27,600 nucleotides of DNA, taken from positions 1-27,600 of the IMG/VR virus record IMGVR_UViG_3300020377_000025; one strand, given 5' to 3'. The notes beneath the pieces were generated by a model that was given only the letters and a program-made list of their open reading frames with translations, had not been told where the DNA came from and did not search any database. Shown piece by piece: positions 1,932-12,509 of the stretch; the stretch's first letter is position 1, and each line of letters starts with the position of its first letter. This DNA comes from a virus. The position numbers and the translations under genes were made by a program.

Positions 1932-2096
1932 ATGTCTTTATTTGATACAAACTATCGTACAGCAACCGTAACATTTTATAAAAATGATATGGGTTTAATT
2001 AGTGTAGATGTCCCTGCTACTAACTATGATAGTGCTAAAAGAACAGTCAGAGAACAGTATGGAAATGTAGATATTAAGAGGGTTAATCTTAACTAA
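1932..2096 (+). CDS. Small hypothetical protein, 54 aa
   Basis: Begins MSLFDTNYRTATVTFYKND and ends VDIKRVNLN. It has the same strand-helix-strand outline as its upstream neighbour: a helix SAKRTVREQYG is followed by NVDIKRVN, comparable with AKNFIQNKLG followed by VEIEVIKN. The stop overlaps the methyltransferase start (TAATG), which implies translational coupling. No classical Shine-Dalgarno is seen, only AT-rich sequence. Function unknown. Confidence 0.75.
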   Translation: MSLFDTNYRTATVTFYKNDMGLISVDVPATNYDSAKRTVREQYGNVDIKRVNLN

Positions 2097-3046
2097 TGAT
2101 AGATACAATTCTTTATGGAGACTGTAGAGACACCATTAGGACTATTGATACAGAAGTTCAAATGTGTGTTACTTCCCCACCTTACTATGGACTGAGAGAT
2201 TACGGAGGAGAATCTAATCAGATAGGACAAGAGAATAGTCCAGAAGAATATATTAATTCTTTAGTGGAAGTATTCAAGGAGGTAAGAAATGTATTATCTG
2301 ATGATGGTACATTATGGGTAAACATAGGCGATAGTTATTATAACTATCGACCAGGAAAAGGTCAAGGTTTAGTTAAACAATCAGTATCTAAAACTAAACA
2401 AGATTTACCTGATAAATGTGCAAGGAGAGCAAACAAATTAGAGGGATTAAAAGAAAAAGATTTAATCGGTATTCCTTTTATGTTAGCATTTGCACTAAGG
2501 ACTGATGGATGGTATCTTAGGCAAGATATTATTTGGCATAAACCTAATCCTATGCCTGAGAGTGTGAAAGATAGATGCACCAAATCTCATGAATATATCT
2601 TTTTACTCAGTAAGAGTAAGAAATATTATTATGATAATGAGAGCATCAAAGAACCTGCTAAGGACTGGGGAACTAGAGATCGCACTAATGGAAAGTATCA
2701 TAATAAGGGAACTGGACTACAACCGCACTCAGGATTAAGTAAGAGTTATCCAACAAAGAATAAGAGATCCGTTTGGAGTGTTACCAATAAACCATATAAG
2801 GATGCACATTTTGCTGTATATCCACCTGACTTAATTGAACCCTGCATCAAGGCAGGGAGTAGAAAAGGCGATATTGTGCTAGATCCATTCATGGGTAGTG
2901 GCACAACCGCTATGGTAGCAAAAAATTTAGGAAGGCATTATATAGGATGTGAATTGCATGAATCCTATGGAGATTTAATTGATAAGCGTGTGCCAGTTGA
3001 GAAACCTATACACAATTCACTTACAAAGGCATTAGATTTAGTATAA
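2096..3046 (+). CDS. Site-specific DNA methyltransferase, beta class
   Basis: A 316-residue member of the N6-adenine/N4-cytosine methyltransferase family (PF01555 type). The catalytic motif IV TSPPYY is at 26-31. The variable, target-recognition part lies in the middle. The AdoMet-binding motif I DPFMGSGTT is at 263-271, followed by GRHYIGCEL (279-287). The order IV, target domain, I is that of the beta class. The SPPY form is found in both N4-cytosine and some N6-adenine enzymes, so the modified base is not decided. No restriction endonuclease gene is adjacent, so it is most likely an orphan phage enzyme, perhaps protecting phage DNA. Its TAA lies inside a -10-like TATAAT and a long palindrome (see 3042-3066). 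Confidence 0.93.
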   Translation: MIDTILYGDCRDTIRTIDTEVQMCVTSPPYYGLRDYGGESNQIGQENSPEEYINSLVEVFKEVRNVLSDDGTLWVNIGDSYYNYRPGKGQGLVKQSVSKTKQDLPDKCARRANKLEGLKEKDLIGIPFMLAFALRTDGWYLRQDIIWHKPNPMPESVKDRCTKSHEYIFLLSKSKKYYYDNESIKEPAKDWGTRDRTNGKYHNKGTGLQPHSGLSKSYPTKNKRSVWSVTNKPYKDAHFAVYPPDLIEPCIKAGSRKGDIVLDPFMGSGTTAMVAKNLGRHYIGCELHESYGDLIDKRVPVEKPIHNSLTKALDLV

Positions 3047-3070: not shown

Positions 3071-3370
3071 ATGAAACTAACAACTGAAGAATTACAAGAA
3101 CTCAAGTATCATCTAGCAGACAGAATTGTAGATAATATGGACATCAAAGACTTAGTAAAATATGTTTTTGATGATTACATGGAATATTTTGATAAAATCT
3201 CTGAAGTTGAATTCATGAATGAAGCAAAAAACTACTGGGATGATGCTTGCTTTGAGGAAGTATTGGAGGATGTTAGAGATTTTATAAAGTGTGATTTTAA
3301 AAAACCAATGGAAGATCGTGAAGCATCTAACATTTTTATTGACATTAACAACAATGGAGGTAAGTATTAA
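3071..3370 (+). CDS. Acidic hypothetical protein, 99 aa
   Basis: Starts MKLTTEELQELKYHLADRIV, a strand-like MKLT followed by a helix. This opening resembles several other small proteins in the window (LTDEEL, LTDKQL, LTEHQI). The rest is rich in acidic and aromatic residues (DDYMEYFDKI, YWDDACFEEVLEDV) and looks helical. The stop overlaps the next ATG (TAATG), so translation is coupled. No membrane segment. Function unknown. Confidence 0.8.
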   Translation: MKLTTEELQELKYHLADRIVDNMDIKDLVKYVFDDYMEYFDKISEVEFMNEAKNYWDDACFEEVLEDVRDFIKCDFKKPMEDREASNIFIDINNNGGKY

Positions 3371-3753
3371 TGCCACAAACAATATCAGTAGAATATACTC
3401 TAACTGATGAAGAGTTAGAGAATATTTTAGAAATGGCATCCTATGGTTCTAACTACTGGGCGGATGAGATCAATTACAACCTAGATGAGACTATGTTGAT
3501 CGAAGTAGTAGAGGGTATGAGAGACAAGAAATATAATATCACAAAAAATATGATCGAGCAAAGTATTGTAGCAATTGCCGAGAATAAAGTTGAAATACAA
3601 TTACATACAAGTAATCGTAAGAAAGTTTTTGATTACATGACTAGGGATATATGGGATACTGATGCATGTTCATCAATAGATTACATTTGTGATTCTACTA
3701 TGGCGGACTGGATTTTACAATGTGCATGTATGGGCGACATTCCTTATGGGTAA
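3370..3753 (+). CDS. Acidic hypothetical protein, 127 aa
   Basis: Opens MPQTISVEYTLTDEELENIL, the beta strand plus LTDEEL helix seen in other small proteins here. The second half has IWDTDACSSIDYICDSTMADWILQCACMG, with several cysteines but no CxxC metal pair. The protein is co-translated with the preceding gene. Its stop codon directly abuts the first repeated stem-loop/promoter cassette. Function unknown. Confidence 0.8.
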   Translation: MPQTISVEYTLTDEELENILEMASYGSNYWADEINYNLDETMLIEVVEGMRDKKYNITKNMIEQSIVAIAENKVEIQLHTSNRKKVFDYMTRDIWDTDACSSIDYICDSTMADWILQCACMGDIPYG

Positions 3754-3812
3754 TGTGACAATAACATTTCCGCACACTAATCACACTATTTTCTCAAGAA
3801 ATAGACTACAAT
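3754..3812 (+). promoter_or_regulatory. Repeated cassette A: stem-loop plus promoter
   Basis: TGTG (3754-3757) can pair with CACA (3773-3776) right after the upstream stop. It is followed by CACTAT (3784-3789), 17 nt, and TACAAT (3807-3812), then ATACAAAC and a strong AAAGGAG ribosome site for the next gene. The right part from AAATAGAC onward is nearly identical to cassettes H and I. The box-spacing-box layout repeats ten times in the window, which is the main support. Confidence 0.75.
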
Positions 3813-3839
3813 ACTAATATACAAACAAAGGAGTTTTAA

Positions 3840-4310
3840 ATGCCAAATTGGTGCAAAAATAGAGTTACAGTATGGTCAAGCATGTCAGACAAAGAAACCG
3901 ACCAACTGAACCGTATCAAAGAAATCTTTACATCTAAGGATACAGTTTTTGGTAAAATCATACCTAGTCCAGACTGGGCAACTATTCCAAATGAGGATGG
4001 AGAACTACCTACAGTCAGAGAACACAAAAATCCAAAAACAGGCGAAGTGTCATTTGTTACAACTGAATTTCCTAAAAGTGGTAAGCAAGATTCCAGATGG
4101 TACGATTGGAATTTACAAAACTGGGATACTAAATGGGATGTTGTAAATTCAGTTGAGGTAGATGCTGAGGAAGATATGCTAGAACTTAACTTCAATACAG
4201 CATGGAGTCCACCAGAATCAATATGTCACAAATTGCGTGAAATGTTCCCTGATGTTAGCATACAATGGTTCTATGATGAACCAGGAATGGAAATTGCAGG
4301 TTACCTGTAA
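3840..4310 (+). CDS. Api92-like protein (DUF1281-like, ferredoxin-fold domain)
   Basis: A 156-residue protein with the hallmarks of the Api92/DUF1281-like family: start MPNWCKNRVTV, central NWDTKWDV (about 93-100) and FNTAWSPPES (about 118-127), and an aromatic C-terminal part (QWFYDEPG, then GYL). Family members occur in phages and on plasmids or integrated elements, and their biochemical role is unknown to me. The start is supported by AAAGGAG at about 6 nt. It is the first and apparently only gene behind cassette A, before the hairpin and promoter at 4313-4366. Confidence 0.88.
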   Translation: MPNWCKNRVTVWSSMSDKETDQLNRIKEIFTSKDTVFGKIIPSPDWATIPNEDGELPTVREHKNPKTGEVSFVTTEFPKSGKQDSRWYDWNLQNWDTKWDVVNSVEVDAEEDMLELNFNTAWSPPESICHKLREMFPDVSIQWFYDEPGMEIAGYL

Positions 4311-4312
4311 AC

Positions 4313-4366
4313 CACTTTTATAAGTGTCCACTATAGAGACTATTTCAACCAGATAGTCTCTATAAT
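4313..4366 (+). promoter_or_regulatory. Repeated cassette J: hairpins plus promoter with a 12-bp dyad
   Basis: CACTT (4313-4317) pairs with AAGTG (4322-4326) just after the upstream stop, and AGTG/CACT pairs around 4323-4332. The promoter is GACTAT (4338-4343), 17 nt, TATAAT (4361-4366). TATAGAGACTAT (4332-4343) and ATAGTCTCTATA (4353-4364) form a perfect 12-bp inverted repeat with a 9-nt spacer. It covers both promoter boxes and looks like an operator. Confidence 0.75.
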
Positions 4367-4391
4367 GTAAATATACAACAGATTTTTTATT

Positions 4392-4577
4392 ATGTCATCA
4401 CAAATGTTATTTCTTATAGATGTATATTCTGACTGGTGCAAGAAAAACAAATTTCCTAGAGTATGTGCATCCGACCTACTAGAAATGCCAGAATACAATG
4501 GTAGGTTAAATTTATTACAAAAAACATGGTTAGAGAATTTTATCTCTACATGGGATCTAGTCAACCAATACACTTAA
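4392..4577 (+). CDS. Small hypothetical protein, 61 aa
   Basis: Starts MSSQMLFLIDVYSDWCKKN and contains CASDLLEM and LLQKTWLENFISTWD. The layout of a short helix, a xASDLL segment, then LxxxQxxWLxxFxxxWD is one I associate with small cyanophage proteins of unknown role. No Shine-Dalgarno precedes the ATG, only TTTTTTATTATG. First gene of a five-to-six-gene run after cassette J. Confidence 0.75.
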   Translation: MSSQMLFLIDVYSDWCKKNKFPRVCASDLLEMPEYNGRLNLLQKTWLENFISTWDLVNQYT

Positions 4578-4582
4578 TTATC

Positions 4583-4723
4583 ATGAGAATATTAAATGCT
4601 CAAGAGTATAGACTCTTAACTGAAACAGTATTGAATTCAGTTCAATATATCAATCAGAATAACAAAGATCAACTAAATTCAATTTTAGATAAACTTTACA
4701 ATGGAGAAGTGACTGATGAGTAA
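4583..4723 (+). CDS. Small hypothetical protein, 46 aa
   Basis: MRILNAQEYRLLTETVLNSV opens with a strand and an LT-type helix, and the end is LDKLYNGEVTDE. The first ATG after the preceding gene is used because an upstream in-frame ATG would overlap that gene deeply. The LxxLxNGEV ending resembles the end of the protein at 8612-8797 (LIVNGEVEKCN). Overlaps the next gene by 8 nt. Function unknown. Confidence 0.65.
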   Translation: MRILNAQEYRLLTETVLNSVQYINQNNKDQLNSILDKLYNGEVTDE

Positions 4724-4886
4724 GTACAAAACAACACCAAAAGAAAAAATGATAATCAATCTCATGGAGGAGGTTATTAACATTTTATCAACTTGCGAAG
4801 ATTTATCTGATCCCGCATTTTCAATGTATGACACTATGAAACATGCGGTTGACAAAGAAGTTTACTATCCATTATACGACAAATGA
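4716..4886 (+). CDS. Small hypothetical protein, 56 aa
   Basis: Starts MSKYKTTPKEKMIINLMEEV inside the end of the preceding gene and ends YYPLYDK. Mostly helical in appearance, with one cysteine. The stop overlaps the next start (ATGA), so it belongs to a chain of overlapping genes. GGAGAAG lies about 6 nt before the ATG and serves as the ribosome site. Function unknown. Confidence 0.65.
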   Translation: MSKYKTTPKEKMIINLMEEVINILSTCEDLSDPAFSMYDTMKHAVDKEVYYPLYDK

Positions 4887-5047
4887 AAATTACATTTAAA
4901 AACACAAAGAAAGAAATTTATGATGCTATGCTACGGTATGATAACATAAAATTTCTAAAAGAGAAGGATATTATCAAATTAAAACAAGAGAGAAATATTC
5001 TTGTTTACTTGGTTATCATCCTATTTACTACCACTTGCTTATTCTAA
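4883..5047 (+). CDS. Small protein with C-terminal membrane segment, 54 aa
   Basis: The first 38 residues are charged and helical (KKEIYDAMLRYDNIKFLKEKDIIKLKQERN). The last 16 (residues 39-54) are a hydrophobic run ILVYLVIILFTTTCLF with no charges, ending at the C-terminus. This arrangement predicts a tail-anchored inner-membrane protein with its charged part in the cytoplasm. The hydrophobic run is short for a full span. Overlaps both neighbours (ATGA before, TAATG after). Function unknown. Confidence 0.65.
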   Translation: MKITFKNTKKEIYDAMLRYDNIKFLKEKDIIKLKQERNILVYLVIILFTTTCLF

Positions 5048-5259
5048 TGAAAACCTATACTAACTATTTGGGTTCAAAATTTGATATTGAACCAATAACT
5101 AAAACAGTCAATCGTTACACTAGAGCAGGGAATGAGGGTAGAAATATCTTTTGTCCTAAGTGTGATAAAAGATCGAGGGTATTCCATTTTAGTTGGTCAG
5201 CACTTAATTGTCAGCATTGTGACACTATGATAGACAAAAATCAATGGAGGACAGTTTAA
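5047..5259 (+). CDS. Zinc ribbon protein, 70 aa
   Basis: Four cysteines form two pairs: CPKC (36-39) and CQHC (55-58), separated by SRVFHFSWSALN. This is a typical zinc ribbon knuckle arrangement, suggesting binding to nucleic acid or a protein partner. The N-terminal 30 residues hold a basic stretch (NRYTRAGNEGRN). The ATG at 5047 overlaps the upstream stop (TAATG); an earlier TTG in frame is less likely. The partner is unknown. Confidence 0.75.
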   Translation: MKTYTNYLGSKFDIEPITKTVNRYTRAGNEGRNIFCPKCDKRSRVFHFSWSALNCQHCDTMIDKNQWRTV

Positions 5260-5429
5260 TGAAAACTAACAACTTAAAACTGACTGATAAACAATTGAAA
5301 AGTTTATATCATTTTGTAGAGGAGTTTAATTTAAACAAAAATCCACAAATTGATAGAGTCCATTCTAAACTATTCAAATTATTTTGGGATCGAGAGGAGG
5401 AGTGTGCCAATAATATTTCCGCACATTAA
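5259..5429 (+). CDS. Small LTDKQL-type protein whose end is encoded by a promoter cassette, 56 aa
   Basis: The ATG at 5259 overlaps the preceding stop and has GGAGG at 5246-5250. The protein opens MKTNNLKLTDKQLKSLYHFV and continues PQIDRVHSKLFKLFWD, matching the strand-helix-helix plan of the proteins at 9722 and 9958. The last nine residues, ECANNISAH, come from the left half of cassette B and match the last nine of the 9722 gene (ECDNNISAH) except at one position. The original C-terminus was therefore probably replaced when the cassette arrived. Function unknown. Confidence 0.75.
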   Translation: MKTNNLKLTDKQLKSLYHFVEEFNLNKNPQIDRVHSKLFKLFWDREEECANNISAH

Positions 5430-5461
5430 CCACAGCATTTTTCAACCATTGTGTCTATAAT
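5402..5461 (+). promoter_or_regulatory. Repeated cassette B: stem-loop plus promoter
   Basis: TGTG (5403-5406) can pair with CACA (5422-5425) within the end of the upstream coding sequence. The promoter is CAGCAT (5433-5438), 17 nt, TATAAT (5456-5461). CCATT (5446-5450) and AATGG (5459-5463) form a short dyad around the -10 box. The -35 box is the least conserved of the main copies. Confidence 0.7.
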
Positions 5462-5484
5462 GGTAGTATAAGACAAATCAAACT

Positions 5485-5820
5485 ATGAGAACTTGGATTT
5501 TTAAAGACTACTTAAATGATAAGCATGGGGAATTCATACCTATGCAAACTATTGAATCAGAATTTTTCGGTAGGCACTTTTTCATTGACATTGGATTCCA
5601 CTTTATTACAGCACCTAGTCTCAAGTCAGGTGGTTATGACAAGTCACAATTAGAATATGTTAGTGACTGGACTGACTGGGAAGGTGTTGATATGGGCGAA
5701 TTGATGGACATTAATCGCAAACTATGTTGGAATCAATGGCAAGAAGATAGAGAGAAAGCAAGGGAAGAATACCTTGAACTAGAGCATGCAGTTGAGACTG
5801 GAGACATTACTTACTTCTAA
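5485..5820 (+). CDS. Acidic, tryptophan-rich hypothetical protein, 111 aa
   Basis: Begins MRTWIFKDYLNDKHGEFIPM. It has an aromatic centre (FFGRHFFIDIGFHFIT), a WTDWEGVDMGELMDINRKL segment and an acidic helical end (EDREKAREEYLELEHAVETGD). First gene after cassette B. No strong Shine-Dalgarno: the ATG is preceded by AAATCAAACT. The stop overlaps the next start (TAATG). Function unknown. Confidence 0.8.
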   Translation: MRTWIFKDYLNDKHGEFIPMQTIESEFFGRHFFIDIGFHFITAPSLKSGGYDKSQLEYVSDWTDWEGVDMGELMDINRKLCWNQWQEDREKAREEYLELEHAVETGDITYF

Positions 5821-6065
5821 TGATTATTGACCCTTTTTTAAACAACCCAAACACACTTTACTATCAAAAACTCATGAATAACAAAATAGAAACAAAACAC
5901 TGGGATTTACAGTCAGATCTAGCAGATTGTATCCAAACTGATTTCGGTGGTAATGAAGAAAAATTACTAGATGAGATCCTATCTGAATACTTAACACTAA
6001 TTGATGATAAAAGGAAGGATGAGTTAAGAGAAATCATAACAGAAAATTTCTTAGGAGGTGTTTAA
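5820..6065 (+). CDS. Small acidic hypothetical protein, 81 aa
   Basis: Opens MIIDPFLNNPNTLYYQKLM and is helical and acidic further on (EEKLLDEILSEYLTLIDDKRKDELREII). The start is coupled to the upstream stop. The coding end contains TTAGGAGGTG, which is the ribosome site of the next gene. Function unknown. Confidence 0.78.
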   Translation: MIIDPFLNNPNTLYYQKLMNNKIETKHWDLQSDLADCIQTDFGGNEEKLLDEILSEYLTLIDDKRKDELREIITENFLGGV

Positions 6066-6066
6066 A

Positions 6067-6249
6067 ATGAACTATAAAGAGTCAATTGTGCTAGATGGAT
6101 ACATCAATCTATGGGAAGTTATCCCAGAGGATAAACATTCAAAACTTGCTAACTTGATATGGAAAGCATTAGATGATGAAGGAATTACATTATCACAGGA
6201 TGCAGAGTTAAGTATTCGAGTGTATGACAGTATAGAAAGTGGCACATAA
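6067..6249 (+). CDS. Small hypothetical protein, 60 aa
   Basis: The ATG at 6067 is chosen over a GTG nine bases earlier because GGAGG (6055-6059) sits 7 nt before it. Sequence features: SIVLDGYINLWEVIPED, KLANLIWKALDDEGITLSQDAELSIRVYDS. The stop codon TAA is in the loop of a GCACA/TGTGC hairpin (6242-6255) that starts the next promoter cassette. Function unknown. Confidence 0.78.
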   Translation: MNYKESIVLDGYINLWEVIPEDKHSKLANLIWKALDDEGITLSQDAELSIRVYDSIESGT

Positions 6250-6281
6250 TTGTGCTATTTTCTCACAATTACCATTATAAT
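6242..6281 (+). promoter_or_regulatory. Repeated cassette C: stem-loop plus promoter
   Basis: GCACA (6242-6246) and TGTGC (6251-6255) form a hairpin with a 4-nt loop that holds most of the upstream stop codon (6247-6249). The right arm leads into TGCTAT (6253-6258), 17 nt and TATAAT (6276-6281). The leader has ACAAACAAA and no clear Shine-Dalgarno. Confidence 0.72.
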
Positions 6282-6306
6282 AAGTACATAACAAACAAAT
6301 CTAATT

Positions 6307-6510
6307 ATGGTCATCCTAGAATCAATCGAATATGATAGAACTACATCCGATCAGGAAGAACTAGAGTTCAAAGAATTCAATGCTCTAGGTTTTTGGGATT
6401 ATACAACTTCGGATGATCTATGGAATAGAGTAGAAAAGTACATGGGAACTAAACTACATTCTATTAGATTTTGTGATAATAGACCACACATACTTACATC
6501 ATTCAAATAA
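6307..6510 (+). CDS. Small hypothetical protein, 67 aa
   Basis: MVILESIEYDRTTSDQEELEF, then FNALGFWDYTTSDDLWNRVEKYMGTKLHSIRF. Acidic first half and a mixed strand-helix second half. First gene of a three-gene operon behind cassette C; the next ATG follows the stop with no gap. Function unknown. Confidence 0.75.
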   Translation: MVILESIEYDRTTSDQEELEFKEFNALGFWDYTTSDDLWNRVEKYMGTKLHSIRFCDNRPHILTSFK

Positions 6511-6726
6511 ATGAAAACACAATTACATGAGTTCTATGTGACTCGCAAATGCACTAAAATGGAATACTTTACTGTTAGAGCAGAAAGTATGGATCAAGCA
6601 AAGTATGAAGTAGAACATGGTTATGACTACTACAATTTCGATTGGGATGAATTCGATCATGAAACAGTTGATATAGTAGAGCAAGAGATCCCAGTTCAAC
6701 AACTTACATTATCAGGAGTATTTTAA
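6511..6726 (+). CDS. Small hypothetical protein, 71 aa
   Basis: MKTQLHEFYVTRKCTKMEYFTVRAESMDQAKYEVEHG shows a strand, a turn, a second strand and an alanine-lysine helix. The pattern of VRAESMDQAKYEV is like the SxxxAK helix of the small proteins at 1746 and 1932. The C-terminal half is acidic (YDYYNFDWDEFDHETVDIVEQE). Start directly after the upstream stop, end directly before the next ATG. Function unknown. Confidence 0.78.
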   Translation: MKTQLHEFYVTRKCTKMEYFTVRAESMDQAKYEVEHGYDYYNFDWDEFDHETVDIVEQEIPVQQLTLSGVF

Positions 6727-6939
6727 ATGAACCCACAATTTAAAGTACCATTAACTGAGCATCAAATCTCTACCATTCTTTACACTATGGAGGGTTACAT
6801 GCAAGGATCGGATGATAATGAAGATTCTAACTTTGTTAGTGATGTTGATGAAATTTTTAGAATTCTTGAGACTACCATAGACAAATACTATGATAAGGTA
6901 GAAAAGGCACAAAGTAAACAACCCGAACCAGAATGGTAG
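6727..6939 (+). CDS. Small LT-type protein, 70 aa
   Basis: MNPQFKVPLTEHQISTILYTMEGYM has the strand plus LTxxQI helix pattern shared by several small genes here. An acidic linker (SDDNEDSNFVSDVDE) and a second helix (IFRILETTIDKYYDKVEKA) follow. The stop codon TAG overlaps the left arm GGACA (6939-6943) of the next cassette. Function unknown. Confidence 0.75.
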   Translation: MNPQFKVPLTEHQISTILYTMEGYMQGSDDNEDSNFVSDVDEIFRILETTIDKYYDKVEKAQSKQPEPEW

Positions 6940-6995
6940 GACAGTTTACTTAGTGTCCACTATTTGCACTATTTTCAAACTATTGCCATTATAAT
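6939..6995 (+). promoter_or_regulatory. Repeated cassette D: stem-loop plus promoter
   Basis: GGACA (6939-6943) can pair with TGTCC (6954-6958). Alternatively TAGTG (6951-6955) pairs with CACTA (6958-6962). The promoter is CACTAT (6967-6972), 17 nt, TATAAT (6990-6995). ATTGCCATTATAATGGTAAT around the -10 box is palindromic apart from one pair. CGGAG (7008-7012) is the ribosome site of the following gene. Confidence 0.75.
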
Positions 6996-7020
6996 GGTAA
7001 TATACAACGGAGAAAAATTT

Positions 7021-7197
7021 ATGAGTACATTACATCATGAAGCATTACTAGAAGATTGTTTTGATGAAGCAATACAATCTTTTTGTGAGTCTAACAAATT
7101 GACTGAAGCAGAATTTGCTGAAATATCTAATCATGAAGGTGTTATATTAGCAATAGAGAAAAGTGCTAGACAAAGATTTGAGGACTTGTGCCAGTGA
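7021..7197 (+). CDS. Small hypothetical protein, 58 aa
   Basis: MSTLHHEALLEDCFDEAIQSFCESNKLTEAEF, then a helical end. The ATG at 7021 has CGGAGAAAA upstream. A frame open further upstream runs back through the promoter and is not used. The FxEAIxxFCExNxLTEAEF segment is a layout I associate with small cyanophage proteins of unknown role. Function unknown. Confidence 0.75.
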   Translation: MSTLHHEALLEDCFDEAIQSFCESNKLTEAEFAEISNHEGVILAIEKSARQRFEDLCQ

Positions 7198-7565
7198 AAA
7201 TACCGTCCACACATTTCCCATTTACATGGAGCAACTACTATAATAAAGGTATAGCGTCACCAAACTTTATGAATCAATCCGATAGAATCAGTCCAGAAAT
7301 CAAAGAATTTGCAGAATATGTATTTTCTTTTTATGGTGCTGATGATGCCATTTACCCTATGAAGCATAATAAAACTAATCAGTTAGTCACTTATTATGAA
7401 ATATTACTTGCTATTGATCTCTTAATGAAAGAGTACAAAAGAAGAGAAAATGACACAATACCGTTCACTTATGGAGGTGGAGATTCTCTTGATAGAGAGA
7501 GAGTAAGGGATGTACTTGTTAAGTCAATGGATTTCGATAAAAATATGTATGGAGGTGCGATATAA
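7194..7565 (+). CDS. Hypothetical protein, 123 aa (GTG start)
   Basis: The GTG at 7194 overlaps the preceding stop (GTGA) and has GAGG (7180-7183) at about 10 nt. Another GTG at 7188 would add two residues. The protein starts KIPSTHFPFTWSNYYNKGIASPNF, contains FAEYVFSFYGADDAIYPM, EILLAIDLLMKEYK and RERVRDVLV, and looks mostly helical and soluble. Function unknown. The stop overlaps the next ATG (TAATG). Confidence 0.8.
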   Translation: MKIPSTHFPFTWSNYYNKGIASPNFMNQSDRISPEIKEFAEYVFSFYGADDAIYPMKHNKTNQLVTYYEILLAIDLLMKEYKRRENDTIPFTYGGGDSLDRERVRDVLVKSMDFDKNMYGGAI

Positions 7566-7708
7566 TGACCACCAAACAATTAATTAGAGAATATGTTGAT
7601 GACCACTATAAAACATTTGGATTTTATCCTTATGAGGTGGAAGTTGACGGTCAAGTTTACTCTTATGGTGGTTACTGGACAATCTTAGAGGATGATAGAT
7701 TTGATTAA
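7565..7708 (+). CDS. Small hypothetical protein, 47 aa
   Basis: MTTKQLIREYVDDHYKTFGF is a helix followed by YPYEVEVDGQVYSYGGYWTILE, a likely beta hairpin. This small fold with YPYxVEVDGQVY is familiar from cyanophage hypothetical proteins, although I cannot attach a function. GGAGGTG (7552-7558) is the ribosome site. Start overlaps the previous stop. Confidence 0.72.
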   Translation: MTTKQLIREYVDDHYKTFGFYPYEVEVDGQVYSYGGYWTILEDDRFD

Positions 7709-7711
7709 ATC

Positions 7712-7776
7712 CAATAGTGTGACGATTATATTTCCGTCCACTATTGACCCTATTTTACAAACATTACCCTTATAAT
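7712..7776 (+). promoter_or_regulatory. Repeated cassette E: strong stem-loop plus promoter
   Basis: CAATAGTG (7712-7719) pairs with CACTATTG (7739-7746), and GACG (7721-7724) pairs with CGTC (7735-7738). This gives 12 base pairs with a single bulged T and a 10-nt loop, the best stem of the series. The promoter is CCCTAT (7748-7753), 17 nt, TATAAT (7771-7776). TACCC/GGGTA flank the -10 box. AAAGGA is the downstream ribosome site. Confidence 0.8.
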
Positions 7777-7785
7777 GGGTATATA
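7736..7785 (+). repeat. 50-bp direct repeat, left copy
   Basis: These 50 bases are identical to 8101-8150. The pair lies 365 bp apart and brackets exactly one gene (7801-8094), with each copy carrying a complete promoter. Confidence 0.9.
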
Positions 7786-7800
7786 CAAAAGGATTTTATT

Positions 7801-8094
7801 ATGCCCCGAACAAACAAATCAAGTAAAAGACTAGATGCAAAGACTAAGCAAACAATCAAAAATATTGAGTTTTGTATAGATCAATGCGGTATGAATGATG
7901 ATGAAATCGGAGAAATGCTTAGAGCAATTGAAAAACTACATATAAGTTCAGTTCAACATTTTTGTGAAGAGTTCGTTTTTATTGCAGAGGGAACTACACC
8001 AAAAGAAAACCTAAAATATCATCATGATGACTTTTTCAATATAGCAGAATTCAATGCAATGTATTGGGGACAAAATCAACAAATGGACACTTAG
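7801..8094 (+). CDS. Hypothetical protein, 97 aa, bracketed by direct repeats
   Basis: MPRTNKSSKRLDAKTKQTIKNI is a basic start. It is followed by FCIDQCGMNDDEIGEMLRAIEKL and an aromatic acidic end (KYHHDDFFNIAEFNAMYWGQNQQMD). Mostly helical in appearance. It has its own promoter (cassette E) with AAAGGA before the ATG. Its TAG stop is the loop of the hairpin at the head of cassette F. The 50-bp identical repeats on both sides make it a candidate for excision or transfer as a unit. Function unknown. Confidence 0.8.
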   Translation: MPRTNKSSKRLDAKTKQTIKNIEFCIDQCGMNDDEIGEMLRAIEKLHISSVQHFCEEFVFIAEGTTPKENLKYHHDDFFNIAEFNAMYWGQNQQMDT

Positions 8095-8141
8095 ATTAGT
8101 GTCCACTATTGACCCTATTTTACAAACATTACCCTTATAAT
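8084..8141 (+). promoter_or_regulatory. Repeated cassette F: perfect stem-loop plus promoter
   Basis: TGGACACT (8084-8091) and AGTGTCCA (8098-8105) form a perfect 8-bp stem whose 6-nt loop contains the TAG stop of the upstream gene. The promoter is CCCTAT (8113-8118), 17 nt, TATAAT (8136-8141), with TACCC/GGGTA around the -10 box. The leader has AACAAACAAA and no Shine-Dalgarno. Confidence 0.8.
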
Positions 8142-8150
8142 GGGTATATA
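8101..8150 (+). repeat. 50-bp direct repeat, right copy
   Basis: Identical to 7736-7785 over 50 bases. The flanking bases differ on both sides, so the match ends sharply. Confidence 0.9.
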
Positions 8151-8166
8151 ACAAACAAATTTTATT

Positions 8167-8610
8167 ATGGTAACACTAAGTACAAACTACAAAGAAACTT
8201 TAAAATCTGAGACTGTTACAACTATTGATGAGTTACTAGAGGATTATAACATAAATTTCGGATTAGATGAAATACTAGAATTCATTGATGAGTATGGAGA
8301 AGAAAATATTAACTATTTCGCTGACTATGATTATCTAGTTCACAATATACATGCATTTGGTAGAGAGCAAGAAGTAATAGATGCTTATATTAATGATAGT
8401 CTAGGTAGCATAAGTTATATTGATTCAATAGATGTTGATGCATATTGCGGACAATTTGATGATAAAGAAGATTTTATTACTCAATATGAGTTAGTAGATA
8501 TTGATATTCCTAGATGGTTAGTTATAGATTATGATGCAACTTGGGAGTGTAATGTTCGTCATGATTATTCTTGGAATGAAGAAACTAATGATGTATGGAG
8601 GAATCACTAA
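8167..8610 (+). CDS. Acidic protein with ArdA-like C-terminal region (possible antirestriction)
   Basis: A 147-residue protein with 36 Asp/Glu and only 7 Lys/Arg. Residues 92-107 (AYCGQFDDKEDFITQY), 114-127 (IPRWLVIDYDATWE) and DYSW (133-136) follow the C-terminal pattern of ArdA antirestriction proteins, in which a GxFDSxEDF segment is followed by IPxxLxxYxDYxA. ArdA proteins mimic DNA and inhibit type I restriction enzymes. The strong negative charge fits DNA mimicry. The first 90 residues are not recognisable as the ArdA N-terminal part, and the protein is shorter than typical ArdA (about 165 residues), so this may be a diverged or single-domain relative. First gene behind cassette F; the next gene follows with its own GGAGG. 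Confidence 0.75.
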   Translation: MVTLSTNYKETLKSETVTTIDELLEDYNINFGLDEILEFIDEYGEENINYFADYDYLVHNIHAFGREQEVIDAYINDSLGSISYIDSIDVDAYCGQFDDKEDFITQYELVDIDIPRWLVIDYDATWECNVRHDYSWNEETNDVWRNH

Positions 8611-8611
8611 A

Positions 8612-8797
8612 ATGACAATTTACAATCCTAAGTATGATAAAAGAACCGCAATCTTTACTGAGTTATGTTCACTTTATGAGAGTAATAATAGCGATTTTTA
8701 TTACATTTTAGATGGATTAGTTACTATCTTAAATGATAATCAACTAGAGCAAGTTAAACAACTAATTGTTAATGGAGAAGTAGAAAAATGCAACTAA
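8612..8797 (+). CDS. Small hypothetical protein, 61 aa
   Basis: The ATG at 8612 is 9 nt after GGAGG (8598-8602). An upstream open extension overlaps the acidic protein in another frame and is rejected. The protein starts MTIYNPKYDKRTAIFTELCSLY and ends LEQVKQLIVNGEVEKCN. The NGEV ending resembles the 4583 gene. Overlaps the next gene by 10 nt. Function unknown. Confidence 0.75.
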   Translation: MTIYNPKYDKRTAIFTELCSLYESNNSDFYYILDGLVTILNDNQLEQVKQLIVNGEVEKCN

Positions 8798-9117
8798 CAA
8801 GTAAGTGTGGCACTATGGTTATCGACTATTACAAGTGCAAATCTTGGAAAACTAATAAAGTTTTACCTACTGTTTACTTAATGGTATCAACTTTTAAAGG
8901 TGTTACTATCAAGAAACAAAACTTACAAGAATTAGAGTTTTATAGTTCAGTAGGTAGAAAAATAGATCATGGTTACATCAAAACTGGACAAAATGACCTA
9001 CCACAATATTATGATGAAAATTTAGATAATGATGGTAGATTATACAATCTCGATAAGAATGTATGCCCTGAGATAACAAAAGCATTTAAAGAACTAAGAG
9101 ACAAAAACCGATTATGA
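8788..9117 (+). CDS. Hypothetical protein, 109 aa
   Basis: MQLTSKCGTMVIDYYKCKSWKTNKVLPTVYLMVSTFKGVTI suggests several beta strands. A polar middle part (QNDLPQYYDENLDNDGRLYNLD) and a short helix EITKAFKELRDKN follow. GGAGAAG (8774-8780) is the ribosome site. Last gene of the operon that starts at cassette F. Function unknown. Confidence 0.78.
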   Translation: MQLTSKCGTMVIDYYKCKSWKTNKVLPTVYLMVSTFKGVTIKKQNLQELEFYSSVGRKIDHGYIKTGQNDLPQYYDENLDNDGRLYNLDKNVCPEITKAFKELRDKNRL

Positions 9118-9143
9118 ACAATTATTACAATCACATTAATAAA

Positions 9144-9172
9144 GGCATATTTTTCATAATATCCTTTATAAT
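9144..9172 (+). promoter_or_regulatory. Probable promoter L (diverged cassette)
   Basis: TATAAT is at 9167-9172 with GGCATA or GCATAT 16-17 nt upstream, followed by TTTTC as in the cassettes. There is no clear stem-loop. It lies in the 84-bp gap before the next gene and looks like a degenerate relative of the repeated promoters. Confidence 0.55.
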
Positions 9173-9201
9173 GGTTATAGAAACAATCAACTTTCAAAAC
9201 T

Positions 9202-9456
9202 ATGCAAACATCTATTAAATCAATAAGCAAAAACCATAGCATAGGCACTTTAATAGAGTTGTATATGAAAGAAAATACTGATTACTTTAATGGTTCAGTT
9301 GAGAGAATGATCTCATTTGTGAATGACCTTACACAATGGAAGTTTATCACAATGGGATTTAATGATAGGACACAAAAACCATATATTGTTTATAGTGATA
9401 CAAAATTTTACAAACTGACTGAACTGTTTAAAATTGATCCACAATATGCCAATTAG
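9202..9456 (+). CDS. Hypothetical protein, 84 aa
   Basis: MQTSIKSISKNHSIGTLIELYMKENTDYFNG, then ERMISFVNDLTQWKFITMGFNDRTQKPYIVYSDTKFYKL. It looks helical first and strand-rich later. Single gene between promoter L and cassette G. No evident Shine-Dalgarno (CTTTCAAAACT). Function unknown. Confidence 0.75.
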   Translation: MQTSIKSISKNHSIGTLIELYMKENTDYFNGSVERMISFVNDLTQWKFITMGFNDRTQKPYIVYSDTKFYKLTELFKIDPQYAN

Positions 9457-9503
9457 ATTTGTGTCCACTATTGACCCTATTTTTCAAACATTGCGATTAT
9501 AAT
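9440..9503 (+). promoter_or_regulatory. Repeated cassette G: weak stem-loop plus promoter
   Basis: CACAA (9440-9444) can pair with TTGTG (9459-9463) across the upstream stop codon. The promoter is CCCTAT (9475-9480), 17 nt, TATAAT (9498-9503). The 21 bases from 9463 to the end of the CTATTTT stretch are shared with cassettes E, F and I. Confidence 0.75.
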
Positions 9504-9533
9504 GGTAGTATAAACAAACAAAATTGATTTTTT

Positions 9534-9725
9534 ATGAAATACGCAATTTTTACAAAACCAGTTCAATTTACAAAAGATTATAAGCATGCATGCATTATTG
9601 CGGATGAATACTTTAACAAAACTGGTATAATTGTTGCGGTAGAGGAGGTTCAGCGATTACATCAATTTCCATCACAAAACGCTGACCTTTACAAAACACC
9701 TTATTTTACAGAATTTGCATCATGA
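9534..9725 (+). CDS. Small hypothetical protein, 63 aa
   Basis: MKYAIFTKPVQFTKDYKHACIIADEYFNKTGIIVAVEEVQ has a strand, helix, strand outline. It is followed by a polar tail with QFPSQNADLYKT. The stop overlaps the next start (ATGA). Function unknown. Confidence 0.72.
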   Translation: MKYAIFTKPVQFTKDYKHACIIADEYFNKTGIIVAVEEVQRLHQFPSQNADLYKTPYFTEFAS

Positions 9726-9898
9726 AATTAACAATCACAGTTACAGGCGGACAGTATCAAATGTTACATAACCTAATGTGTGATGCCTATGATCGAGGTT
9801 ATGACCAAAGACCTAGAATAGACACACAAACATTTGATAATCTTATGGATGCCATTTGTAATGCAAAAGAGTGTGACAATAATATTTCCGCACACTAA
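9722..9898 (+). CDS. Small strand-helix protein with cassette-encoded end, 58 aa
   Basis: MKLTITVTGGQYQMLHNLMC, then PRIDTQTFDNLMDAICN. The plan is a beta strand, a helix and a second helix introduced by ID, the same as in the proteins at 9958 (IDAKAYDSLSDKF) and 5259 (IDRVHSKLFKL). The last nine residues ECDNNISAH are encoded by the stem-loop part of cassette H and recur in the 5259 gene with one change. Function unknown. Confidence 0.75.
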   Translation: MKLTITVTGGQYQMLHNLMCDAYDRGYDQRPRIDTQTFDNLMDAICNAKECDNNISAH

Positions 9899-9930
9899 TT
9901 GCCCTATTCTCTCAAAAAATAGACTACAAT
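9870..9930 (+). promoter_or_regulatory. Repeated cassette H: stem-loop plus promoter
   Basis: AGTGTG (9870-9875) pairs perfectly with CACACT (9891-9896), a 6-bp stem with a 15-nt loop lying in the end of the upstream coding sequence. The promoter is CCCTAT (9902-9907), 17 nt, TACAAT (9925-9930). The right half matches cassettes A and I. Confidence 0.75.
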
Positions 9931-9957
9931 ACTATTATACAAACGAATTTATTAATC

Positions 9958-10107
9958 ATGAAATACAATTACACTTTCACAACTGACGAGGATCAAGTAC
10001 TGTTAGATATGTTACAGTACTTTGATGATATGGGTTTACCTGAGCATATAGACGCTAAAGCATACGACAGTCTAAGCGATAAGTTTTTCAAAAACAACCC
10101 TGCATAG
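9958..10107 (+). CDS. Small strand-helix protein, 49 aa
   Basis: MKYNYTFTTDEDQVLLDMLQYFDDMG, then PEHIDAKAYDSLSDKFFKNNPA. A beta strand is followed by two helices, the second introduced by ID, so it is a likely paralogue of the preceding gene. Acidic. Single gene between cassettes H and I, and its TAG stop lies in the stem of cassette I. Function unknown. Confidence 0.75.
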   Translation: MKYNYTFTTDEDQVLLDMLQYFDDMGLPEHIDAKAYDSLSDKFFKNNPA

Positions 10108-10164
10108 TGACGATTATATTTCCGTCCACTATTGACCCTATTTTTTAAAAAAATAGACTACAAT
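10104..10164 (+). promoter_or_regulatory. Repeated cassette I: stem-loop plus promoter (mosaic)
   Basis: ATAGTG (10104-10109) pairs with CACTAT (10127-10132) and ACG (10110-10112) pairs with CGT (10123-10125), with one bulged C and a 10-nt loop. The promoter is CCCTAT (10136-10141), 17 nt, TACAAT (10159-10164). The left 37 bases equal cassette E and the right half equals cassette H. Confidence 0.78.
10108..10144 (+). repeat. 37-bp direct repeat shared with 7720-7756
   Basis: These 37 bases are identical to 7720-7756 in cassette E. After this point cassette I switches to the sequence type of cassettes A and H, which marks a recombination-like boundary. Confidence 0.88.
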
Positions 10165-10202
10165 ACTATTATACAAACAAATTAATTCATTTTTTCACTT
10201 AT

Positions 10203-10514
10203 ATGACAAATACAAAACTCACTCAGCAACTAATCAACAGAATTCAAGAAGTTGAGAAATTTAACGATATTGCAGAATTATGCGAGGATTTTCAAACTTT
10301 TGTAGATGAGTTGAGCGACTGGGAAGTTTCACATATTGGTGGAGTTGACTTTTTCTCAGGTAAGAGAGTAACCGATCCTGTAACTGGTAGATCTGACTGG
10401 GAACTAAATCAAGAGTTAGATATGACTATGTTAGATAATTTCTTTAATTCATTTGGATGCACTAAAGCAAATCCACATCCGACTAGCAAATACTACAACG
10501 CTAGGGTTATGTAA
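10203..10514 (+). CDS. Hypothetical protein, 103 aa
   Basis: MTNTKLTQQLINRIQEVEKFNDIAELCEDFQTFVDEL is helical. The second half has IGGVDFFSGKRVTDPVTGRSDWEL and MLDNFFNSFGCTKANPHP. First and only gene behind cassette I. No Shine-Dalgarno is seen ahead of the ATG (TTTTTCACTTAT). Function unknown. Confidence 0.78.
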   Translation: MTNTKLTQQLINRIQEVEKFNDIAELCEDFQTFVDELSDWEVSHIGGVDFFSGKRVTDPVTGRSDWELNQELDMTMLDNFFNSFGCTKANPHPTSKYYNARVM

Positions 10515-10541
10515 CTAATTGTTTCAATTCCCCCATATATG

Positions 10542-10570
10542 CCCCATTAGTGGCAAAAATCCATTATACT
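10542..10570 (+). promoter_or_regulatory. Probable promoter K (degenerate cassette)
   Basis: CCCCAT (10542-10547), 17 nt, TATACT (10565-10570) keeps the spacing and most bases of the cassette promoters. The left half is not conserved, and only a short GCC/GGC stem is visible near 10541-10554. Confidence 0.55.
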
Positions 10571-10607
10571 AATAATAACAAAACAATTTCACTTCATTTT
10601 TTAAATC

Positions 10608-10940
10608 ATGCGTAAAATCGAAACACAAATGAACATGGCAATCAGATCACAAAAGAACTGGGCGGGCGGTAATACAACCGTATTTACTGATGATGCAGGT
10701 TTATACTCTACAGTTTACCTACATGGTAACAAAATTGCTTCATACTCTCATGTAGATAGATCTCTTGAATTGCTAGATGGCGGTTGGCAGTCCAATACAA
10801 CCAAATCACGCTTAAATGCACTTTGCTCAGAGTTAAAACCAGGTTTTAGAGTATTTCAAAAGCAATTTGAGTGGTTTATTTCAGATACACTAAACAACAA
10901 AACTTTCCCATTCACTTCTGGCGGTTTAATCACCGCCTAA
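10608..10940 (+). CDS. Conserved phage hypothetical protein (LHGNKIA...DGGWQSNTTKSRLNA)
   Basis: A 110-residue protein with three blocks I recognise from a widespread uncharacterised phage family: MRKIETQMNMAIRSQKNWAGGNT at the start, VYLHGNKIASY (about 36-46) and LLDGGWQSNTTKSRLNALC (about 55-73). The rest, with FRVFQKQFEWFI, is aromatic. No enzymatic motif is apparent. It has its own promoter-like segment (K) and is followed by two more small genes with short gaps. The base composition is slightly richer in G and C than its neighbours. Confidence 0.85.
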   Translation: MRKIETQMNMAIRSQKNWAGGNTTVFTDDAGLYSTVYLHGNKIASYSHVDRSLELLDGGWQSNTTKSRLNALCSELKPGFRVFQKQFEWFISDTLNNKTFPFTSGGLITA

Positions 10941-10977
10941 GATTGTCCTTACTAATTAACATTTTACTAACCTAATT

Positions 10978-11280
10978 ATGCCTAGAAAAACATCACTAAC
11001 CGTAGAAAAGTTATCAAAAGATATTAACTTTTTCTATGGTTATATTGCTGAGTGTGAGTTACTACTACCGTTTAATGCTAATGTAAACAATACCTTAGAA
11101 TATATCAAATCTGAGTATCAACAAGAAGATTTAATTATATCTCACAAAGTATTAGATAGTGGCGATATTACACTTTATATTAATGGTACTGGAGAAAAGC
11201 AAATTAACTCACTAATTAATATTATCTCGGAAGATTATAATGTCATTGATTGTCAATTAGAGTCAATCACAGAATGTTAA
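10978..11280 (+). CDS. Hypothetical protein, 100 aa
   Basis: MPRKTSLTVEKLSKDINFFYGYIAECELLLPF, then YQQEDLIISHKVLDSGDITLYINGTGEKQINSLINIISEDYNVIDCQLES. The middle looks like a beta sheet and the end a helix plus strand. No Shine-Dalgarno (CTAACCTAATTATG). Function unknown. Confidence 0.75.
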   Translation: MPRKTSLTVEKLSKDINFFYGYIAECELLLPFNANVNNTLEYIKSEYQQEDLIISHKVLDSGDITLYINGTGEKQINSLINIISEDYNVIDCQLESITEC

Positions 11281-11312
11281 ATAATACGAGAATCGACCGC
11301 CCCTAAAAGTTA

Positions 11313-11540
11313 ATGAAACTAGAAGATTGCAAAGTTGGATTAACAATTAAGTATGAACATATGCAGGGGCAAATACAATTTATTAGTGACCAATATATAA
11401 CCTTTTGTGTTAGTGAACAAGAGGTAACTTGCAAGTTAAGTAAATACAAAACCACTAAATGTTGTCTCTTAGTGTTTCCCCACCAACTAAAAGATTGTAC
11501 ACTAATTAACACTAATGAAACACAGAATACCGCAGAGTAA
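11313..11540 (+). CDS. Small conserved phage protein (MKLEDCKVG type), 75 aa
   Basis: MKLEDCKVGLTIKYEHMQGQIQFISDQYITFCVSEQEV, then KCCLLVFPHQLKDCTL. The pattern of xxEDCKVGxxVKY, a GxIxFIxxxYITxC strand pair and CLLVxPxxxxx is familiar from small cyanophage proteins and suggests an SH3-like beta barrel. It contains five cysteines (positions 6, 32, 40, 50, 51) without a clear metal-site spacing, and a sixth near residue 62. Last gene before the long non-coding region. Confidence 0.78.
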   Translation: MKLEDCKVGLTIKYEHMQGQIQFISDQYITFCVSEQEVTCKLSKYKTTKCCLLVFPHQLKDCTLINTNETQNTAE

Positions 11541-11631
11541 GTTATATTTAACCGCATAATGTGTAAATCGCAGTTATAACAATACATCTCACACATTTGC
11601 ACACTAAGTAATAATTAAGCACATTACAGTT

Positions 11632-11645
11632 AATATAAACAATTA
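11632..11645 (+). repeat. 14-bp direct repeat AATATAAACAATTA, first copy
   Basis: Identical to 11724-11737, 92 bp downstream. In such AT-rich DNA a chance 14-mer is less striking than it looks, but both copies lie inside the longer inverted structures of this region. Confidence 0.6.
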
Positions 11646-11723
11646 ACACATAATTACGCAAAGTTATTAAATATTAAAATAAACATATATGAGAGATTTA
11701 TAACAATAACTGTATGTTCCTTA

Positions 11724-11737
11724 AATATAAACAATTA
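11724..11737 (+). repeat. 14-bp direct repeat AATATAAACAATTA, second copy
   Basis: Second copy of the repeat at 11632-11645. Confidence 0.6.
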
Positions 11738-11793
11738 GCAGTAAATGTGAGATCTTATTGTGTACTAAGCGAGCGTAACATAAGGAAAAGAAA

Positions 11794-11853
11794 ATGTCAA
11801 CAACTGAGACACACAAAGTTACACACAGTCTTGTAATTGTCAGCATTAAATAA
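11794..11853 (+). CDS. Possible 19-residue leader peptide
   Basis: ATG at 11794 opens MSTTETHKVTHSLVIVSIK and stops at TAA. TAAGGA (11781-11786) is a good ribosome site at about 8 nt. Its first codons are the left arm of the 12-bp inverted repeat, so translation would compete with the hairpin. No promoter is visible upstream, and a peptide this short could be chance. Confidence 0.25.
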   Translation: MSTTETHKVTHSLVIVSIK

Positions 11854-11881
11854 CATTTAAGACTTCTGACAGTTGTTGACA
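11795..11881. repeat. 12-bp perfect inverted repeat overlapping a -35 box
   Basis: TGTCAACAACTG (11795-11806) and CAGTTGTTGACA (11870-11881) are exact inverse copies 63 nt apart. Inside lie TGTCAG (11838-11843) and CTGACA (11866-11871), and AATTGTCA (11835-11842) also pairs with TGACAATT (11877-11884), so alternative pairings exist. The right arm contains the TTGACA box of the promoter at 11876. Confidence 0.8.
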
Positions 11882-11904
11882 ATTAGCAAGGAATAATGTA
11901 TAAT
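11876..11904 (+). promoter_or_regulatory. Consensus sigma70 promoter
   Basis: TTGACA (11876-11881), exactly 17 nt, TATAAT (11899-11904). It is the only perfect match to both boxes in the window and differs from the CNCTAT cassettes. Predicted start of transcription is near 11911. No gene begins within 250 bp except across the structured leader. Confidence 0.8.
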
Positions 11905-11910
11905 ACTATT

Positions 11911-12037
11911 AGTTACAAACACTTTTCTTATTACGCAGACTAACTAACAACAACTCAGAGCATTATTGGCAGTCTTAAGTAATAAGAATGTCACATAAGA
12001 TTGTCTTGCTATTATACAATTAACGACAGTGTTTTTT
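11911..12037 (+). ncRNA. Candidate structured small RNA or leader
   Basis: Starts where the consensus promoter would begin transcription. It contains the stem TTCTTATTAC (11925-11934) with GTAATAAGAA (11979-11988), extended by AGACT (11937-11941) with AGTCT (11971-11975). It ends near a TTTTTT tract (12032-12037) preceded by a weak TGTC/GACA pairing. The terminator-like end is not strong, so the transcript could also read on as a long leader for the 12181 operon. Confidence 0.4.
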
Positions 12038-12133
12038 GTTCTTAAATATATTTTGTGGTTTCATGATGGGGTTTTAATTCAAAGGAACCTTTCTAAGCTA
12101 TAAACGACCCAATTCGACCTTTCGTTACCTCTC

Positions 12134-12161
12134 TATAAAAAAAATTTCTGATATATAAAAA
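12134..12161 (+). promoter_or_regulatory. Two possible late-type promoter boxes (TATAAAAA)
   Basis: TATAAAAA occurs at 12134-12141 and at 12154-12161, each one base away from the T4 late box TATAAATA. They lie 20-47 nt before the 12181 gene. In AT-rich DNA one mismatch is weak evidence, and the doubling and position are the only support. Confidence 0.35.
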
Positions 12162-12180
12162 CAAAGGTCAGTCCACGAAT

Positions 12181-12348
12181 ATGGTAAAAAAATTCAACAG
12201 GGTAAAACTGCCTGTTAGGATTGACTCAGTTACTGATGAGTATATCATTACAATACCTGAGTCGTTTGTTCAACAGTTAGATTTGTACGAAGATCAGGAA
12301 CTCACACTCGAACTTTACGAAGAAGGAATCTACATCTCGGAAGAATGA
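12181..12348 (+). CDS. Small AbrB/MazE-like domain protein, 55 aa
   Basis: MVKKFNRVKLPVRIDSVTDEYIITIPESFVQQLDLYEDQELTLELYEEGIYISEE. The core YIITIPESFVQQLDLYEDQELTLEL follows the swapped-hairpin AbrB/MazE pattern, in which a strand ending IP is followed by a short helix, then a turn with D and a strand of alternating hydrophobics. Such proteins bind DNA as dimers, either as transcription regulators or as antitoxins. No toxin-like gene is next to it. The stop overlaps the next ATG, so the gene heads an operon of four overlapping genes. The family call is inferred from pattern only. Confidence 0.65.
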   Translation: MVKKFNRVKLPVRIDSVTDEYIITIPESFVQQLDLYEDQELTLELYEEGIYISEE

Positions 12349-12509
12349 CTAAAACTTATCATGTCTACTTTAAAGAGGAATGTATCTTTAAGAATCTAGA
12401 TAAGAGTGAGTTCAAGGTGATATGGGGAAGAATATATAAGTCGTACCATAAGGGCGACATTACTTATAGTGTCGTTACCGATCAAGATTATACTGATGCC
12501 TCGTTCTGA
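12345..12509 (+). CDS. Small conserved cyanophage-type protein, 54 aa
   Basis: MTKTYHVYFKEECIFKNLDKSEFKVIWGRIYKSYHKGDITYSVV. The pattern YHVYxKxxCxFKNLxxxEFKVIWG is one I remember from many marine T4-like phages, where the role is unknown. The ATG overlaps the upstream stop (AATGA). The last residues overlap the start of the following oxygenase by 14 nt. Confidence 0.75.
   Translation: MTKTYHVYFKEECIFKNLDKSEFKVIWGRIYKSYHKGDITYSVVTDQDYTDASF

Follow-up and report, generated by a model that had tools for sequence, protein, structure and literature searches.

The 27.6 kb (27,600-nucleotide) viral record IMGVR_UViG_3300020377_000025 of IMG/VR, referred to here at its full length as the window, is a genome fragment of a T4-like cyanophage of the Kyanoviridae, and between positions 3,754 and 10,570 it carries an array of repeated intergenic promoter cassettes. 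An earlier note on this DNA described the cassettes and missed a 22-bp imperfect dyad, TGnCAnTT-N4-AAnTGnCA, which spans about -52 to -31 and is separated from the -10 hexamer by 29-32 nt (positions are counted from the first base of that hexamer). The cassettes are probably best explained as insulated promoters at operon boundaries, where the host sigma factor would act together with a phage-encoded dimeric regulator, most likely an activator, bound at the dyad. More tentatively, the dyad may be the site of a phage-encoded dimeric activator that defines a Kyanoviridae-wide promoter class of its own and replaces T4 MotA/AsiA and Alt/Mod in the takeover of the polymerase.

All ten intergenic copies claimed for the window are present where stated, on the + (gene) strand; their alignment has no gaps over the stretch from about -60 to +20 relative to the -10 hexamer. 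Each has a TATAAT or TACAAT -10 box, and in each the best dyad match lies exactly 30 nt from it (Table 1, where each copy's best dyad score is compared with 300 shuffles). The CNCTAT box ascribed to the array is exact in seven copies (cassettes 1 and 5-10), has one mismatch in two (GACTAT at 4338, TGCTAT at 6253) and two mismatches in one (CAGCAT at 5433). Its spacing from the -10 box is indeed 17 nt in every copy, which by itself is not independent evidence because some 85 bp are repeated as a whole. The shared leader, ATACAAAC, had been overstated: it is exact in three copies (-10 at 3807, 9925 and 10159), and ACAAAC is found in six. One further copy had been overlooked (GGCATA-17-TATAAT, -10 at 9167); it has no recognisable dyad and reaches 28 bits against a profile in which it is itself included. 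The copy at 10542 is degenerate, as claimed (CCCCAT, 17 nt, TATACT). With at most one mismatch allowed, the window holds 13 matches to CNCTAT-17-TAYAAT, compared with 3.2 +/- 2.0 in shuffles (0 of 100 reached 13), and the nine claimed copies recovered in this way are all on the + strand. A palindrome around the -10 box itself (CCCTTATAATGGG, cassettes 6 and 7) was rejected as a further element, as it did not rise above half-swapped controls. TTGACA promoters show no excess in the region (53 found, 55 expected). The sole perfect TTGACA-17-TATAAT promoter of the scanned region (11876-11904) lies outside the array, in the 640-nt gap 11541-12180, and is without cassette features.

A profile built from the eleven window copies was iterated over about 160 contigs (2.0 Mb) of marine phage, relatives that are non-independent samples despite the identity filters. 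This gave 551 matches on the + strand and 26 on the - strand, with 378 non-redundant copies (<90% identity). At related loci with gene calls (simple open reading frame (ORF) calls), 492 of 516 + strand matches were noncoding though coding sequence makes up 76% of the DNA, and the - strand had just 25 matches; the pattern is not equally frequent in coding DNA, which was the check that the earlier note had set. The profile search that it had proposed likewise showed the cassettes to be widespread in relatives, with matches in all eleven cyanophage isolates examined (P-SSM2, P-SSM3, P-SSM4, P-SSM7, P-TIM40, S-PM2, Syn9, Syn1, S-RSM4, ACG-2014a and P-TIM68; 2-14 each). Isolate copies also occur outside the hyperplastic region, for example 5' of cobS in P-SSM4 and 3' of gp32. 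The exact dyad-spacer-TATAAT pattern gave more than 40 matches in cyanophages, none with control patterns, and none in T4, RB49 or the Microcystis phage LMM01; the first 50 kb of RB49 held no profile match. Rfam contained no match for the cassette, nor did an exact string search of IMG/VR, and BLASTN of two single cassettes against phage records was empty for one and returned for the other a weak intergenic P-SSM3 match besides chance-level matches.

A dyad-independent set was obtained by selecting promoters on TATAAT and the start bases alone, within intergenic gaps that precede a start codon (241 promoters at <70% identity). The dyad is present in 182 of these, against 11 after shuffling, and in 174 it lies 29-32 nt from the -10 box. 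Across the same promoters the 29 nt that separate the two elements have an identity of 0.30, the level of chance. The -10 box, a purine start and an A-rich leader are strongly conserved across copies; at the predicted start in the iterated profile set, index 12 is A or G in 98% of copies and index 13 is T in 88%, with the A-rich leader next. At the -35 position there is a weak C-rich preference, the best offset being -23 in 163 of 378 copies compared with about 16 after shuffling. Of the 241 promoters, 24 have CNYYAWT and 35 a TTGACA-like box at this place. The promoters may be sigma70-like: the -10 and start are conserved, but most have no consensus -35. CNCTAT is a local version of the C-rich preference in this phage and not a general element, and the idea that the array has its own box is not supported.

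Compared in register, the two arms of the dyad show no covariation. At pair 8/17 the mismatch G/G is commonest (139, against 113 for G/C), pair 5/20 combines A or C with T or G in all four frequent combinations, and all eight pairs are formed in only 8 of 375 copies. As the arms vary independently, the dyad looks like DNA to which a dimeric protein binds and not like an RNA stem; it resembles a degenerate protein site, and such variation is not expected of a maintained hairpin. An RNA hairpin at the dyad was rejected, since the apparent covariation, at a constant distance of 13, was a register artefact that disappeared once the copies were in register. Between the dyad and the -10 box, 27% of copies have a perfect stem of 6 bp or more, against 3.4% when halves were swapped between loci and 5.9% when they were swapped within a locus. 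In 8.4% of non-redundant cassettes (0.7% in the control) a GC stem leads into a run of T that stops at the -10 box, a predicted terminator which is a separate hairpin 3' of the dyad; 86% of the cassettes of this class keep the right half of the dyad. No terminator is evident in the window copies on the + strand. In another hairpin class CCCCATTCG..TGGGG directly precedes the -10 box. The window sequences CCCTATTTT resemble the CCCCATTCG left arm, and the CNCTAT box may therefore be partly a hairpin arm, with pairing kept in some copies (-10 at 3807, 9925 and 10159) and lost in most. In RB49 (L162), near 43008, 33312 and 25315, perfect hairpins fill the -35/-10 spacer (e.g. GGGGATCGGTGATCCCC), like one class of cyanophage cassette.

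In the favoured model, host RNA polymerase carrying the primary sigma factor would open the TATAAT box and start at the conserved purine (A, then T) 6 nt past the hexamer, and a short A-rich leader would run into the next small operon. In place of a consensus -35, the dyad, whose centre is about 53.5 bp upstream of the start and which keeps a constant distance from the -10 box whatever the intervening sequence, would be bound by a dimeric phage-encoded protein in contact with the polymerase; the most likely role of this protein is activation, presumably early in infection. It would be the functional counterpart of T4 MotA in phages that reportedly have no MotA, AsiA, Alt or Mod. An intrinsic terminator or other hairpin, present between the dyad and the -10 box in a minority of copies, may stop or trim the upstream transcript. 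The cassette would separate operons, and genes could therefore be exchanged at its edges. The combination of host sigma factor and phage activator was a guess in the earlier note; it now has a concrete basis in a fixed-distance 22-bp dyad that is not enriched in hosts.

RB49/phi1 and other T4-like phages reportedly carry promoter-early stem-loop (PeSL) cassettes, and the dyad could correspondingly be the RNA stem-loop of the upstream operon's terminator, followed by an ordinary host sigma promoter with no phage regulator. This explanation is unlikely, although a serious contender: the dyad lies just after or over the upstream stop codon (median distance from stop to -10, 47 nt), T-rich sequence is found 3' of it in some relatives, and RB49 has terminator-then-promoter cassettes. 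However, the arms of the dyad do not covary and are usually not fully paired, the predicted terminators are separate hairpins in cassettes that mostly retain the right half of the dyad, and the distance to the -10 box is constant despite intervening sequence of random identity. Moreover, at P-SSM2 AY939844 66593-66612 (L370, L415) a single dyad is flanked by two correctly spaced -10-like boxes, one on each side, the - strand side being without an annotated gene. It is unlikely, too, that the dyad is the operator of a phage repressor which would turn early genes off later in infection. The sequence evidence is the same as for an activator, and symmetric sites are often repressor sites, but a dyad upstream of the polymerase core footprint, at a fixed distance and in promoters mostly lacking a TTGACA-like -35, fits activation better.

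An improbable alternative makes the cassette or its dyad a recombination or nuclease site for gene shuffling, with the promoter linkage secondary. The ends of blocks conserved among related phages cluster on either side of the promoter core, at -75..-25 and at 0..+50 relative to the -10 box; 104 of 504 ends fall within -75..+50, against 43.8 +/- 6.7 at random. In the L086 and L087 phages (about 96% identical) two genes have been swapped between two sites; the breaks on the left lie in the -10/leader and those on the right at stop-start overlaps. Yet breakpoints occur at 31% of cassette junctions and at 28% of other gaps of at least 60 bp (p = 0.45), and the fixed -10 spacing has no obvious role in recombination. 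The cassettes mark exchange boundaries, and causing exchange cannot be claimed. The suggestion that genes are gained and lost one at a time draws modest support from the clean exchange with cassette-bounded left ends and from the pile-up at cassette edges, but cassette junctions show no clear excess of breaks over other intergenic gaps. It is very improbable that the dyad is read by a host regulator exploited by the phage, as has been shown for PhoB, which binds promoters of cyanophage S-PM2d (PMC10976474), and proposed for NtcA, for which multiple cyanophage promoters are predicted (PMC3037559). In 15 cyanobacterial genomes the strict dyad gave 4 matches against 3 for the control, no excess in an exact-pattern scan that degenerate host sites would escape, whereas 17 phage records gave about 19 against 0. 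The psbA probe, used only for reaching host genomes, matched Prochlorococcus at 99-100%. The host NtcA site GTA-N8-TAC is found in 4 of the 241 promoters and the CRP site TGTGA-N6-TCACA in none, which, together with the control-level host dyads, argues that a phage protein is the likely reader.

Several points, the exactness of the host scan among them, weigh against a phage-encoded activator at the dyad. The dyad centre near -53.5 is not a classic activator position (-41.5 or -61.5), and about a quarter of the promoters picked by -10 and start are without a detectable dyad. In five of the ten window copies the right arm of the dyad is divergent (TTTCCG), and for two of these 5-9% of shuffles reach the same score. 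The profile behind most copies contains the dyad by construction, and the 241-promoter set avoids the dyad in the choice of promoters, yet its dyad matrix derives from profile-found copies of other loci. The proteins common to ten isolates were listed and inspected, and no obvious regulator was seen among them. An AbrB/MazE-like ORF at 12181-12348 was rejected as the regulator, as dyads occur in P-SSM2, P-SSM3 and P-SSM4 without a match of this kind. This 55-aa ORF resembles MazE/AbrB swapped-hairpin DNA-binding proteins (PF04014, below cut-off), and similar matches occur in some, not all, cyanophages.

The array lies in a hyperplastic region, with 10-11 copies in the 6.8 kb from the helicase and methylase genes towards gp25, a density in keeping with the many hyperplastic-region copies of a PeSL set, and the cassettes bound transcription units of 1-6 genes. 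P-SSM3 and P-SSM7 share the annotated gene order helicase, small ORFs, gp25. Two unrelated ORFs, with their 3' ends at 5400-5429 and 9872-9898, both finish NNISAH because the cassette encodes these ends. The first gene of one cassette operon (8167-8610) encodes an acidic 147-aa protein that matches PHROG 36653, annotated as an anti-restriction protein. Beyond the array, 12469-13666 holds an adjacent, related pair of 2-oxoglutarate (2OG)-Fe(II) oxygenase genes.

Table 1. Cassettes and gene setting (window positions, except for the exchanged modules; shuffles, number of 300 reaching the dyad score).
Feature	Positions	Strand	Dyad	-35-position box	-10 hexamer	Shuffles	Remarks
Cassette 1	3755..3830	+	3755-3776, variant (TTTCCG type)	CACTAT 3784-3789	TACAAT 3807-3812	27	spacer inverted repeat CTATTT..AAATAG
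Cassette 2	4309..4384	+	4309-4330	GACTAT 4338-4343	TATAAT 4361-4366	0	spacer-spanning 12-bp perfect inverted repeat 4332-4343 / 4353-4364
Cassette 3	5404..5479	+	5404-5425, variant	CAGCAT 5433-5438	5456-5461	7	encodes NNISAH end of upstream ORF
Cassette 4	6224..6299	+	6224-6245	TGCTAT 6253-6258	6276-6281	0	spacer 8-bp inverted repeat 6247-6254 / 6264-6271
Cassette 5	6938..7013	+	6938-6959	CACTAT 6967-6972	6990-6995	0	
Cassette 6	7719..7794	+	7719-7740, variant	CCCTAT 7748-7753	7771-7776	2	
Cassette 7	8084..8159	+	8084-8105 (TGGACACT/AGTGTCCA)	CCCTAT 8113-8118	8136-8141	0	
Overlooked copy	9144..9190	+	none detectable	GGCATA 9144-9149	TATAAT 9167-9172	238	17-nt spacing
Cassette 8	9446..9521	+	9446-9467	CCCTAT 9475-9480	9498-9503	0	
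Cassette 9	9873..9948	+	9873-9894, variant	CCCTAT 9902-9907	TACAAT 9925-9930	16	spacer inverted repeat; encodes NNISAH end of upstream ORF
Cassette 10	10107..10182	+	10107-10128, variant	CCCTAT 10136-10141	TACAAT 10159-10164	5	spacer inverted repeat 10138-10156
Degenerate copy	10512..10590	+	none	CCCCAT	TATACT 10565-10570	214	17-nt spacing
Helicase	497-1741						
N6/N4 methylase	2096-3046						
Hyperplastic region	3071-11540	+					about 30 small/tiny ORFs; helicase and N6/N4 methylase on one side, 2OG oxygenases, gp25, gp6 and gp7 on the other
Kyano_Gp96 gene	10608-10940						
Genes after the small ORFs							two 2OG oxygenases, gp25, gp6, then a very long open frame at the gp7 place
Exchanged modules, L086	1385-1883 and 8573-8800						
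Exchanged modules, L087	4562-4792 and 11537-12035						

Cyanomyoviruses have been reported to be without motA and asiA, and the control of their early and middle transcription in the absence of the T4 regulators has been described as unclear (PMC2984593). T4-like cyanophages are abundant in the ocean, and a phage-specific dyad at a fixed distance is a concrete handle on this question, usable as bait for the regulator and for sequence-based prediction of early operons. In T4, middle promoters combine a MotA box with a sigma70 -10. The cassettes are like them in having a strong -10, no consensus -35 and, instead, an upstream phage-protein site (here putative); unlike them, the site is a 22-bp dyad, whereas that of T4 lies near -30. 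The pMarR protein of cyanophage P-SSP7 provides a precedent for a dimeric cyanophage-encoded activator, one that touches the polymerase alpha subunit (PMC9692554); however, it is a podovirus protein that acts at a host promoter, downstream of the start, and has no link to this dyad. Repeated intergenic elements that act as promoters are described for halovirus HF2 (PMC8707807), in which virus, host and sequence are unrelated to those studied here.

Cyanophage S-PM2 is described as being without the dense PeSLs of other T4-like phages (PMC4503421). The assignment of the window array to PeSL in the earlier note fits in so far as the array consists of early-type promoter repeats that separate short operons in a T4-like hyperplastic region, and the terminator feature and sigma consensus agree only in part. 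Both sets are small repeated cassettes between small genes of such regions; the PeSL arrangement of terminator and promoter, with the promoter 3' of a stem-loop, and the tie to gene exchange may be shared in part, and in RB49, too, hairpins lie within the -35/-10 spacer. In contrast to PeSL, the cyanophage cassettes are without a TTGACA -35, and a true terminator is predicted in only about 8% of copies, where it overlaps the -35 position instead of preceding the promoter. The layout, which would work like that of PeSL, is known; the 22-bp dyad at a fixed distance is a new element.

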